Origin: Gordonia paraffinivorans NBRC 108238
GTDB taxonomy: Bacteria; Actinomycetota; Actinomycetes; Mycobacteriales; Mycobacteriaceae
DNA: 64,000 bases
Direction: 5' to 3'
Assembly (NCBI RefSeq): GCF_000344155.1
Contig: NZ_BAOQ01000003.1
Location: 62,001-126,000 of the forward strand
Shown: positions 31,448-36,075 of the stretch, piece after piece
Position numbering within the stretch: the stretch's first letter is position 1
Layout: every line of letters starts with the position of its first letter
Translations under genes and position numbers: made by a program
The notes under the pieces: model-generated
The model's database searches: none
What the model was told of the DNA's origin: nothing
What the model saw: only the letters and a program-made list of their open reading frames with translations

Positions 31448-32536
31448 TCATTCGCAGGCGACGCCGTCGCCGTCCCGGTCGAGCTTCGCGCGGTACCCGG
31501 GTTGACCCTCGTACAGCGGTGCGGCGCCGGCGGCGCGGGCCGCTGCGCAGTTGGGGTAGTACGCCGACGGCGCCTGGACGCCAGGCGTCCCGGCAGGGGC
31601 TTCGGTCGTCGGGGCGTAGAGCCGCGGCGGGGTGTAGGCGGGCTCGGACGTCGGCGTCCGGTGTGCGGGGGCCGCGGTGGACGTTGCGGTGTCACGCTGC
31701 TCGGCCGGCGTGGTGGCCGGGGCCCCGGTGTCGTCGCAGGTCGACAGGACGCGGATGATGGCGTCCTTCTCCGCCTGGGTGACCCACAGGCCGTATTCGG
31801 CCTTCACGTCGACCTGACGGCTCACGTACGCGCAGCGGTAGGCCTTGTTCGGCGGCAGCCAGGTGGCGGCGTCACCCGCGCCCTTCTTCTGGTTGGTCGG
31901 GCCGTCGACCGCCTGCAGGTTGCGGGGGTCGTTCGCGAGGTCGGCACGGCGTTCGGGGGAGAGTTGCTGCGCTCCCTTCTGCCACGCATCCGACAGTGCG
32001 ACGACGTGGTCGATCTGCACCGCCGACGACGTGCCCTGGCCGCGGACGAACGGGATCGTCTTGCCCGTGTAGGCGTCGTGCAGCGTCCCCGAGAGGACGA
32101 CGCAGCCCCTGGTGCCGGGTTTGACGGTGATGTCGGTCAGATCTCGGCGAAGGATGTCGTTGCGGGTGTCGCAGCCGTTGTGTCCGCCCTCGACGTTCAC
32201 GTCGTCGGACCACTGCTGGCCGAACAGGGCCCGGTCGTAGCCGGTCTTCGGTGCGCGTCCCTTGACCGGAAGGGCGTCGAGCTTGGCCAGCGTGGCGGCG
32301 ACGGACGGCGAGGCGGCGGGTGTCGAGGTGGCGGTGGTGATCGCAGAGGGCGTCGAGGGCTCGCCCCGGGCGGACGTGTGTCCGGCGGCGCTGCCTGTCC
32401 CGACCGCCGTGGGCGTCGTGGTGGCGGGATCGGCGAGACCGCAACCGGTGCCTCCGATGACGAGCGCGACGACGGCGGCACCGACCGACAGCCATCGGGC
32501 CGCCGACGGCAGACATGCGTGTACAGATCCGAGCAT
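31448..32536 (-). CDS. Exported HNH-family nuclease with Excalibur domain
   Basis: 362 residues. N-terminal signal with Cys32 in a weak lipobox (GGTGC), a Thr/Ser/Ala-rich linker, then a GmrSD-C/HNH-type nuclease domain at about 85-265: QIDHVVALSDAW (catalytic D-H), NDPRNLQAVDGPTNQKKG and AYRCAYVSRQVDVKAEYGLWV. A Pro/Thr-rich spacer leads to a C-terminal Excalibur calcium-binding motif (YYPNCAAARAAG, ending LDRDGDGVACE). Secreted proteins of this layout are common in actinobacteria and are thought to degrade external DNA. It follows the PAP2 gene on the same strand after 80 bp. Confidence 0.88.
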   Translation of the reverse strand: MLGSVHACLPSAARWLSVGAAVVALVIGGTGCGLADPATTTPTAVGTGSAAGHTSARGEPSTPSAITTATSTPAASPSVAATLAKLDALPVKGRAPKTGYDRALFGQQWSDDVNVEGGHNGCDTRNDILRRDLTDITVKPGTRGCVVLSGTLHDAYTGKTIPFVRGQGTSSAVQIDHVVALSDAWQKGAQQLSPERRADLANDPRNLQAVDGPTNQKKGAGDAATWLPPNKAYRCAYVSRQVDVKAEYGLWVTQAEKDAIIRVLSTCDDTGAPATTPAEQRDTATSTAAPAHRTPTSEPAYTPPRLYAPTTEAPAGTPGVQAPSAYYPNCAAARAAGAAPLYEGQPGYRAKLDRDGDGVACE

Positions 32537-33492: not shown

Positions 33493-33509
33493 GTGTGTAC
33501 CGTACATAC
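33493..33509. promoter_or_regulatory. 17-bp symmetric divergent promoter for two leaderless genes
   Basis: The whole spacer between two divergent ATGs. Plus strand: TACCGT (33498-33503) then six bases then ATG (33510). Minus strand: TACGGT (33504-33499) then six bases then ATG (33492). The two hexamers overlap by five bases in TACCGTA and sit inside the palindrome TGTAC-C-GTACA (33496-33506). Each -35 must lie inside the opposite gene. Confidence 0.6.
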
Positions 33510-34955
33510 ATGCTCAGGGTCGGGATCTCGACCCTCGGCCGGGGGCGTGCAGGATGGCCCGCGTGGGTCCTGATGCTCCTGCGAGGGCGGAGGGGACAGA
33601 CACTCGCGTACGCCTGCTTCTTCGTCACCGCGCTGGTCATGCGGAGCGTTTCGGACCTGTCCACCCATCGGTTGTGGGCCGACTGTGCGATCGTCGGGTA
33701 CGGCGTCGCCCTGGCCGTGAGCCTGGTATCCCTGCCGGTGCTGTCCGGTCGACGACGCGCCCGGGTCGCGTTCGGCGCCGCGACGGCCGGAGCGCTGCTG
33801 GTGCCGCTGGCACTGCTGCTCACCGGGCGGTACGGCGTGCAGAACGAGGTGACCATCATCGAGCAGTCCGCCGCTGTCCTGTTGTCCACCGGGACACCCT
33901 ATGTGCACGATGCGTCGACTCTCGATCAGATCAATCCGTACCTGCCCGGAATGGCACTGTTCGGCGTGCCCGCAGTCGTGGCCGGCATGGTCGGGGACGG
34001 ACTCGGGCAGGTCTGGGTCGCCGCGCTGACCGATCCGCGGATCTGGTGTCTTCTCGTCGCGCTCGTGAGCGCGGGCGCGGCGCTGCGTCTGCACCGGGTG
34101 CGGTCCCGGTGGGCGCGGGCGGCGATGTTCCTGTCCCTCCTGTCGCCGACCGTCGCGCTCGAGATGTCCACCAGCGGTGTCGATCTGCCGCTGGCCGGCC
34201 TGCTGGTCCTGGGCATCGCGCTCGCCGGGGCCGGACGGGTGAAGTCGGCGGCACTGGCCCTCGCCGGGGCGCTCGCGCTCAAGTGGGTGGCCGTGATCGC
34301 CGTGCCGGTGGTCGCGCTGCTCGTCCTCCGGCAGGAGGGCCGACGCCGCGCGGCGGTGTTCCTCGCAGTCTGCACGGCGGCGTTCGGGGTCCTGCTCGTC
34401 CCGGCGCTGGTGTCGGTGGTCGACATGCTCGCCCAGGTCGTGCGGTTCCCGGCCGGTGTGGGGGTGGTGGCGACGCCCGCCCGTAGCCCGATGCCCGGCG
34501 TCCTGCTCGCGTCGACCGGCAGCGCGGGACGCGCCTGCGCGCTCGTGCTGCTGGCCGTGGCCGCGACGGCGATCGCGGTGCTGGTGATCCGGCGTCCGCC
34601 GCGCACCGCCGGGCGGGCCTATGTGTACGCCGGCATCGGTTTCGTCGCCTTCTTCCTGCTGGCCCCCACCGGGCGGTTCGGATACATGGTCATCCCGGTG
34701 ATGCTCTTCGGCGCCGCGTACGCGACCTCGCGTCTCGTGAACCGACCGGCGGACAGCGGCGAGCATCCGGCCGTGACCCCGGACGTCGCGCCACCGGATC
34801 ACGCGACATCCGACGCCATGTCGCGGAACGATCACGGCCCATTTCCGCGCCCGTGCAACGAGATGCCGCGTGGGATAATCCGGCGATGTACTCCACTGCG
34901 CAGCCGGGCGCGATGTCCCGATTGGCGGGGGAATCGCTCCGTTTCGCAGGGGTGA
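33510..34955 (+). CDS. Polytopic membrane protein, GT87/mannosyltransferase-like
   Basis: 481 residues, about ten to eleven helices. The loop TPYVHDASTLDQINPYLPGM after the third or fourth helix resembles the GT-C/GT87 (DUF2029) polyprenyl-phosphomannose-dependent mannosyltransferases of actinobacteria, where TxPYxxxxxxFxYPP is usual. ALKWVAVIAVPVVALLVLRQEGRR and PTGRFGYMVIPVML are later family-like segments. The C-terminal ~70 residues are polar and the last 23 codons overlap the next gene. Probably envelope mannolipid or glycan assembly. Shares its promoter with the PAP2 gene. Confidence 0.72.
   Translation: MLRVGISTLGRGRAGWPAWVLMLLRGRRGQTLAYACFFVTALVMRSVSDLSTHRLWADCAIVGYGVALAVSLVSLPVLSGRRRARVAFGAATAGALLVPLALLLTGRYGVQNEVTIIEQSAAVLLSTGTPYVHDASTLDQINPYLPGMALFGVPAVVAGMVGDGLGQVWVAALTDPRIWCLLVALVSAGAALRLHRVRSRWARAAMFLSLLSPTVALEMSTSGVDLPLAGLLVLGIALAGAGRVKSAALALAGALALKWVAVIAVPVVALLVLRQEGRRRAAVFLAVCTAAFGVLLVPALVSVVDMLAQVVRFPAGVGVVATPARSPMPGVLLASTGSAGRACALVLLAVAATAIAVLVIRRPPRTAGRAYVYAGIGFVAFFLLAPTGRFGYMVIPVMLFGAAYATSRLVNRPADSGEHPAVTPDVAPPDHATSDAMSRNDHGPFPRPCNEMPRGIIRRCTPLRSRARCPDWRGNRSVSQG
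34874..34879 (+). promoter_or_regulatory. -10 element GATAAT, leaderless start inside upstream gene
   Basis: GATAAT ends six bases before the ATG at 34886 and lies within the 3' end of the GT87-like gene. Confidence 0.45.
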
Positions 34956-35593
34956 TGCTCGAGGTCGCCGAGGCCGCTCCGCTTCTCGGACCGGCGATCC
35001 GGGCGGTCCGCGTCCGCACCGTCGAGGCGGCCGACGCGGCCCGCCTGTGGGCCGGGGACAAGGTGCGAACCGTTCTCGGAGCGGTCATCAGGGAGGTCGT
35101 CGACGTCCTCACCGAGGAGGTCGATCTCACCGATCTCGTCCTGCAGAACGTCGATCTCGAACGGTTGATCGCCGCGGTTCTCGAGGTCATCGACCTCGAT
35201 GCGGTGATCGAGACGGTCGATCTCGATCGCGCTGTCGCACAGGTGGACCTGATGCGGGCCATCGACCTCGTCGACCTGCACGAGGTGATCGGCAAGGTCG
35301 ACCTCGACGAGGTCGCCAAACGCATCGACCTCGATGCGATCGCCGCGCGCATCGACATCGACGCGATCCTCGGCCGGGTGGACCTGGTCGGGCTCGCCGA
35401 GGAGATCATCGACGGCGTCGACCTGCCCGACATCATCCGGGAGGCGAGCACCTCGGTCACCGCCGACGTGATGACCGACGTGCGCAGCAGCAGTGAGCGG
35501 GCCGACGACGCGGTCGCCAACGCGGTCAACCGGTTCCTGCGCCGACGCGGTGCCGGCGCCGACGTGTCCACGCGGGACGGGGTCGACGGATGA
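34886..35593 (+). CDS. Nonapeptide-repeat protein, unknown function
   Basis: 235 residues. Residues 79-186 are eleven tandem copies of a short unit with consensus [VI]-D-[LI]-D-x-[VAI]-[IVA]-x-x, starting at residues 79, 89, 102, 111, 120, 129, 138, 147, 156, 165 and 178; seven successive intervals are exactly nine residues. Examples: VDLHEVIGK, VDLDEVAKR, IDLDAIAAR, IDIDAILGR. The N-terminal 75 residues have amphipathic helices and the tail (SSSERADDAVANAVNRFLRRR) is basic. There is no signal or membrane segment. The stop overlaps the RDD gene start (ATGA), implying translational coupling and a joint job at the membrane. Start choice: GATAAT lies six bases upstream; ATGs at 34853 and 34913 are alternatives. 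Confidence 0.82.
   Translation: MYSTAQPGAMSRLAGESLRFAGVMLEVAEAAPLLGPAIRAVRVRTVEAADAARLWAGDKVRTVLGAVIREVVDVLTEEVDLTDLVLQNVDLERLIAAVLEVIDLDAVIETVDLDRAVAQVDLMRAIDLVDLHEVIGKVDLDEVAKRIDLDAIAARIDIDAILGRVDLVGLAEEIIDGVDLPDIIREASTSVTADVMTDVRSSSERADDAVANAVNRFLRRRGAGADVSTRDGVDG
35120..35443 (+). repeat. Coding array of eleven ~27-bp units
   Basis: Encodes the [VI]DL-type nonapeptides. At DNA level the units share GTCGA(C/T)CTC-like starts but have diverged, so the array is old and selected at protein level rather than a recent minisatellite. Confidence 0.75.
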
Positions 35594-36075
35594 CCGCCGA
35601 GCCGAAGCCGAGACCCGCCGAGCCGCATGCGGTTCACCGCGCGCATGCCGTGCAGGATCGCGACAAGACCGCCGGCATCGTGAGCCGCGGCATCGCGGCC
35701 TTTCTCGACCTGCTGATCGTGTGGATGATCCTCGGTGCATGCTACGCGGGTCTGTCACTGCTGAAGTTCGCCCTGACGGTCAGCGAGTTCCATTTCCTTC
35801 ATGTCGACATCCTGTTCACCACAACGGGTTTCGTGGTCACCTCGGTGCTCTACCTGGCTGCGTGCTGGGGCGTGTCCGGTCGCACGCCGGGCTCGGTGGT
35901 CATGGGCCTGCGGGTGGTCGATTCCACGGGCGGTCGAGTCCGTCCGCTGGTCGCGGTGCTGCGGGCGGTGCTCTGCACGGTCTTCGCGATCGGGCTGGTC
36001 TGGGTCGTGGTCGACCGCCGACGCCGTTCGGTCGCCGACATCCTCCTGCGCACCCGCGTCGTCTACTCCCGCTGA
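35590..36075 (+). CDS. RDD-family membrane protein
   Basis: 161 residues. Polar 25-residue N-terminus, then the RDD fold: first helix with SRGIAAFLDLLIVWMILG (Arg and Asp of the RDD motif), second helix TTTGFVVTSVLYLAACWG, SGRTPGSVVMGLRVVD, and third helix AVLRAVLCTVFAIGLVWVVVDRRRRSVADIL. RDD proteins are small transporters or accessory membrane proteins; some act as Na+/H+ antiporters. Start overlaps the stop of the nonapeptide-repeat gene by four bases. Confidence 0.9.
   Translation: MTAEPKPRPAEPHAVHRAHAVQDRDKTAGIVSRGIAAFLDLLIVWMILGACYAGLSLLKFALTVSEFHFLHVDILFTTTGFVVTSVLYLAACWGVSGRTPGSVVMGLRVVDSTGGRVRPLVAVLRAVLCTVFAIGLVWVVVDRRRRSVADILLRTRVVYSR

Follow-up and report, generated by a model that had tools for sequence, protein, structure and literature searches.

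A nine-residue helical-repeat protein encoded beside, or fused to, an RDD membrane protein in Actinomycetota

The protein described here represents an uncatalogued helical-repeat family that is tied to the known RDD family of membrane proteins. It is encoded in a 64,000 nucleotide stretch of DNA from Gordonia paraffinivorans NBRC 108238 (contig NZ_BAOQ01000003.1, positions 62,001–126,000; referred to below as the window), where a forward-strand ORF of 235 amino acids (34886–35593) carries nine-residue repeats and runs directly into a second forward-strand ORF (35590–36075) for an RDD protein of 161 amino acids. Computational comparison of homologous loci reveals that the two genes overlap, keep their order, occur together, are missing together and are found fused in that same order, and that the repeat units share a defined helix register. 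We consider it probable that the pair forms a split membrane complex, the first protein being a detached N-terminal, probably cytoplasmic, domain of the RDD protein that docks on it by a conserved C-terminal cap.

According to an alignment of 48 rows and a structural model, the repeat protein begins with a helical N-terminal region (residues 9–78; 34910–35119, forward strand) with an LPxxG-type turn, in which P32 and G35 are kept in at least 90% of the rows. This is followed by a helix array (residues 79–177; 35120–35416, forward strand) containing ten unit starts, at residues 79, 89, 102, 111, 120, 129, 138, 147, 156 and 165, and an eleventh in-phase match to the [VI]D[LI] motif lies at residue 178; an out-of-phase match at residue 126 was left out of the count. 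The existence of the repeat in this ORF, first noticed by a sequence-only reading, is confirmed, as is the number of eleven units that it gave. The unit steps are 10, 13, seven times 9 and then 13. The same reading had placed seven units in strict nine-residue register and here it needs amending: the register stands, with seven steps joining eight units, but the first step of 10 had gone unmentioned. Between residues 73 and 183 there are 35 identities at a lag of nine, against a maximum of 25 in 20,000 shuffles, and the motif occurs 12 times in the protein (shuffle mean 1.1, maximum 7). At lag 7 the identities fall to 12, in keeping with the proposal of a regular, non-heptad repeat, which is helical in the models; a coiled-coil heptad was rejected on this periodicity.

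AlphaFold2 models were built for two members of the family, the window protein (using 48 sequences) and a homologue with a longer array, L092. The former has a mean pLDDT of 80.5, with block values of 72–88 across the array, and the array is modelled as short helices, not as disorder. In L092 the mean is lower (68.7) and the first 79 residues fall below 50, but the same helix pattern is seen, with values mostly of 80–90 over residues 101–210. Tandem helical units of the kind that make up a solenoid are present in both models, the regular unit being a seven-residue helix followed by a two-residue VD break (HHHHHHH--). The two 13-residue steps, which had been read as nine plus four, are each modelled as an 11-residue helix, that is with about one extra turn. 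With a pTM of only 0.25 in window-protein and L092 models alike, they bear on the local helix pattern rather than on an overall shape or a continuous stacked superhelix.

Evidence for the helix register comes from both models and, as a model-free check, from the placement of proline. We compiled 599 units picked solely by their two neighbours (units within one protein are not independent), excluding loci L189 and L191 and counting homologues with identical last 110 residues once. Aspartate occupies position 2 in 95.8% of these units and arginine position 9 in 77.5%. Proline is confined to positions 2–5 (4, 26, 1 and 10 occurrences, respectively; 41 in total), which match the helix positions that tolerate it. 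Glycine does not exceed 8.2% at any position; with a looser selection of units, position 5 reaches 10.6%. Stereochemical rules place the hydrophobic staple, N-cap, N1, N2 and N4 relative to the start of a helix. Applied to the modelled register, they make D2 the helix N-cap and assign L3, D4 and V6 to N1, N2 and N4, respectively; V1 and V6 form the hydrophobic-staple pair and R9 lies at the helix end.

The downstream gene product matches the RDD family (Pfam PF06271) with an E-value of 1.5e-12 and 48.4 bits against a cut-off of 24.1. Its hydrophobic segments span residues 35–53, 72–90 and 123–141. The genome holds three RDD matches above the Pfam cut-off and only the copy at 35590–36075 has an array partner beside it. 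In the window the genes share an ATGA sequence (35590–35593, forward strand), the stop of the repeat gene supplying the start of the RDD gene. Across 68 pairs the offset between the genes is −3 in 36, −7 in 16, −13 in 7 and −16 in 5, the remaining 4 lying between 0 and +4, so that the chosen RDD start overlaps the stop of the repeat gene in 64 of 68, where overlapping start codons at −3, −7 or −13 were given preference if available. RDD domains are also carried by certain Mas proteins encoded in mce operons, for which the accessible part of the source only proposes transport (PMC1810536).

The linkage of the two genes extends far beyond this genome. Of 59 genomes searched within the genus, 53 hold the repeat protein and 53 its RDD partner (protein search, E ≤ 0.001), and the six genomes lacking one are the same six that lack the other. 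Were the losses independent, such a coincidence would have a probability of about 2e-8, uncorrected for kinship. Coordinates place the genes next to each other in 52 of the 53 genomes; in the remaining one, G021, the match was fragmented, but its locus (L012) contains the ATGA overlap and the RDD gene therefore adjoins in 53/53. An RDD gene was linked at 29/29 loci of the first set (after L030 had been dropped), at 30/30 class-level loci and then 25 of 28 further ones, at 68/69 loci of a set comprising 22 Gordonia, 6 Rhodococcus, 2 Nocardioides and 39 from the Mycobacterium group and MAGs, and at 24/24 newly examined loci of a phylum sample; these sets are not independent, as several genomes of the 69-locus set recur in the others. 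Counted per genome, the RDD gene adjoins the repeat gene or is fused to it in 55 of 56 of the class sample and in all 23 of the further phylum sample. Loci that repeated earlier ones (L039–L041, L139, L164 and L166) were dropped.

Of the three class-level loci without an RDD gene, L188 reaches the end of its contig and the other two, L189 and L191, are array-like, in genomes that also hold a fused array–RDD gene. The L189 and L191 proteins have a Lys/Ala-rich N-terminus and array-like units of DLT type, with no RDD ORF detected in the locus, and are possibly a distinct paralogous family. The homologue at a Mycobacterium sp. locus (L137) is degenerate and its cap is altered, and the 8.1 kb of the locus yielded no RDD ORF; joint decay of the cap and the RDD partner is a possible explanation.

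Natural fusions provide the strongest evidence for a physical partnership between the array protein and the RDD protein. A single frame encodes array, cap and RDD domain at 17 loci in 16 genomes, and at every one the array leads. A tree was built from 158 distinct RDD domains, 16 of them fused; on it the fused/split label requires 6 changes compared with 15.5 when shuffled, and at least four changes are forced by well-supported branches, although the tree rests on few columns and several fused rows sit on long branches, making their placement unsure. These changes indicate that fused and split forms have probably interchanged more than once. In the same tree the RDD protein of L098, from a contig labelled as an Acidobacteria MAG, groups with Mycobacterium-group rows, so the contig is probably mislabelled or a contaminant. 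Covariation between cap and RDD protein, underpowered at an effective depth of 92 for 197 columns, gave a best inter-protein pair with a z-score of 6.2, compared with values of up to 5.7 in 20 phylogeny-destroying random pairings, and carries no weight here. The direct partnership that the sequence-only reading had drawn from the ATGA overlap is backed by the conservation of that overlap, by co-absence and by the fusions. Equal synthesis of the two proteins and regulation of an RDD transporter, which that reading also put forward, are only possible.

Could the two genes nevertheless be functionally separate and joined only through operon organisation? Overlapping genes are common in such genomes, but the fusions, and the absence of both genes from the same 6 of 59 genomes while their neighbours change, make this very improbable. 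The window has a PAP2 protein upstream of the pair, together with an ORF that matches no Pfam family, and a carboxyltransferase downstream. Two recurrent upstream ORF clusters, which we take to be sucCD, are present at 21 of 22 Gordonia loci and one downstream cluster at 18 of 22, whilst in Rhodococcus, the Mycobacterium group and deeper lineages the neighbours other than RDD differ (a comparison that rests on crude ORF calling). Since the other neighbours vary between genera, the pair itself is what is kept; no shared pathway emerged from the neighbourhood comparison across genera. Two further ORFs in the window may be mentioned. One, upstream at 33495–34955, has no Pfam match and many hydrophobic stretches, and its frame enters the repeat gene by about 70 nucleotides. 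The other (31448–32536, reverse strand) encodes a protein ending in DRDGDGVACE, presumably an Excalibur-like motif, and has the look of an HNH-like nuclease.

The start of the repeat gene at 34886 is supported by an extended −10-like element, TGGGATAAT (34871–34879, forward strand), that lies 6 nucleotides before the ATG. The pattern TGnGATAAT is found 6 nucleotides before the chosen start at 13 of 21 loci of the genus, including that of the window, and before an in-frame start at 10 of 68 loci of the 69-locus set; the sequence of the latter loci, 1,099,180 nucleotides counting both strands, holds 11 instances of a similar pattern combined with a start codon, those cases included. TGGGATAAT is a candidate promoter, and its conserved spacing suggests that in part of the genus the repeat–RDD pair is read from a leaderless transcript whose first nucleotide is in the start codon or immediately beside it.

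Whilst the sequence-only reading had centred on the array, comparison of homologues shifts the emphasis elsewhere. Run length, taken as the longest series of in-phase units in a protein, extends from 1 (a unit lacking in-phase neighbours) to 31 units across 161 homologues. In the window protein it is 8, in the 22 Gordonia proteins 3–17, in the 6 Rhodococcus proteins 8–10 and in the 2 Nocardioides proteins 4 and 9, but the 39 Mycobacterium-group and MAG rows have runs of only 1–3. Close relatives of the window protein differ from it by exactly one unit in the alignment, L008 having one fewer and L012 one more. Despite their short runs, the RDD neighbour is kept in 38 of the 39 Mycobacterium-group rows. 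With the array nearly missing in that group it cannot be the essential element; it is dispensable, and the conserved part is a C-terminal cap that persists. The cap, delimited by conservation in 48 rows and by the model (residues 163–226; 35372–35563, forward strand), overlaps the last array unit in the window protein and includes a long helix (residues 180–226). Its consensus is RVDLxxLAxxIIDGVDLPxIIREASTSVTADVMTDVRSxxERADDAVAxxVxRxLRRR, and all ten residues that are invariant in the 48 rows lie within it (D166, A171, G177, L180, I183, V199, R200, A206, D207 and R220).

Conservation of the cap while run length drifts between 1 and 31 units is also what would be expected of an assembly or stability factor, in which the cap would bind the nascent RDD protein and aid its insertion or persistence and the array would be a drifting spacer. 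The position of the repeat gene, first and with a translational overlap, would suit such a factor too. Permanent fusions would be odd for a chaperone, however, and many lineages retain long, regular arrays, so that we regard this explanation as unlikely.

The array of the window protein (residues 73–183) has a net charge of −22, and the family mean is about −1 per unit. The acidic helical N domain of MgtE gates its pore and, by analogy, the acidic array might bind ions or a metabolite and so gate an RDD ion exchanger. This would agree with the charge and with the accessible parts of two papers, one reporting a Halobacillus RDD protein as an Na+(Li+,K+)/H+ antiporter (PMC5996927), the other stating that RDD has, within the membrane, a conserved site that faces the cytoplasm (PMC12419801). 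Yet D2 and D4 can be explained by helix capping, R9 partly balances the charge, many members have hardly any array, and another RDD protein, SppI (YteJ) of Bacillus, is described in the accessible part of its paper as an inhibitor of the SppA protease (PMC7568657). Gating of this type seems to us quite unlikely. The strong negative charge of the window member could equally be taken to suggest an acidic mimic of nucleic acid acting away from the membrane, in the way that the pentapeptide-repeat protein MfpA mimics nucleic acid towards gyrase. The weak mean charge across the family, with arginine at position 9 in most units, and the linkage and fusion to RDD, for which a mimic offers no explanation, render this idea barely credible and it was rejected.

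A split membrane complex accommodates these observations best. In it, the N-terminal helical region would be followed by a length-variable array of two-turn helices and then by the cap helix, with V1 of each unit serving as hydrophobic staple, D2 as N-cap and D4 in the first turn, L3, V6 and I7 forming the core and R9 closing the helix. As the cap survives where the array does not, it is the likely docking element, and the cap helix would dock on the RDD protein. The array may be a helical arm, adjustable in length, that serves as a scaffold for the RDD protein or tunes it, and in that sense might regulate it. The repeat protein would probably reside on the cytoplasmic side. Of 69 homologues, 41 contain a moderately hydrophobic stretch of 19 residues, frequently within the N-terminal region, so parts of the repeat protein may touch the membrane; the window protein has no such stretch. 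A more ambitious version is possible but doubtful, namely that the family is an uncatalogued and perhaps minimal kind of helical repeat, with one capped two-turn helix per nine residues. In it the repeat protein would be a cytoplasmic arm of tunable length, an obligate subunit, fused and split repeatedly, of one branch of RDD proteins in Actinomycetota, whose activity it would gate or position.

At E ≤ 1 the window repeat protein has no match in Pfam. Nineteen diverse members produced a single stray Pfam match (E 0.0017), and the one NCBIfam match to the repeat protein scores 17 bits against a cut-off of 400. Protein searches (E ≤ 0.001) detected the repeat protein in 12 of 121 genomes of the order; one of these, L030, is a histidine-kinase-like chance match (E 4.8e-4) and was dropped as a homologue. 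Profile searches confined to Actinomycetota (E ≤ 1e-6) found carriers among 69 of 201 family, 56 of 296 class and 27 of 396 phylum genomes, samples that overlap. The 17 top-ranked homologues among named organisms are all from Gordonia. A tblastn search (E ≤ 1e-5) of 72,556 plasmid and 50,697 phage records found no copy of the repeat protein and, in viral contigs, none of 180 stretches fitting a pattern for it was confirmed, so a mobile origin of the gene has no support in these collections. Nor did the accessible portions of the open literature contain a paper describing the pair or joining an RDD family protein to a nonapeptide repeat.

RDD proteins are barely understood, and a dedicated soluble subunit with natural fusions offers a handle on one branch of the family. 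The repeat can be written as a consensus rule and lacks a Pfam or NCBIfam model, and could found a new repeat family. The array is also a possible test case for very short helical units.

How does the array compare with known repeat systems? The TPR, HEAT and PPR units of α-solenoids are about 30–40 residues long. In the models the array likewise consists of tandem helical units, but these are of nine residues, and Foldseek found no PDB match at E ≤ 10 for either array model. In a follow-up comparison by VIA the first array model offered nothing to align; three fold matches of that model to viral models (E ≥ 4.5) were judged meaningless, and in a PDB profile search the sole match at E ≤ 1 was a designed bundle (E 0.11). 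RTX nonapeptide repeats (consensus GGxGxDxux) have the same period of nine and are likewise rich in aspartate and aliphatic residues, but they are glycine-rich and form a calcium-binding β-roll. The RTX repeat (PF00353) was rejected here, with no Pfam match, low glycine at all unit positions and models that are all helix; the β-roll fold is stated in the accessible part of the source (PMC2174480), whereas the present array is glycine-poor and helical in the models. The pentapeptide repeat (PF00805) was set aside too, with no Pfam match and 10 identities at a lag of five, where a lag of nine gives 35. Another comparison is with the MgtE N domain (PF03448), an acidic superhelix whose short helices are joined to a membrane protein, from which the array differs in having no Pfam match to that family, a strict nine-residue repeat and another membrane partner. 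The downstream gene of the window is by contrast a clear member of the RDD family (PF06271), its R/D/D signature being kept (R33 in 69/69, D40 in 68/69 and D150 in 69/69 rows). The accessible parts of the papers on the Halobacillus antiporter and on Bacillus SppI/YteJ mention no array partner (PMC5996927, PMC7568657). Lying beside or fused to an RDD protein as it does, the array suggests an uncatalogued arm of this membrane protein family.
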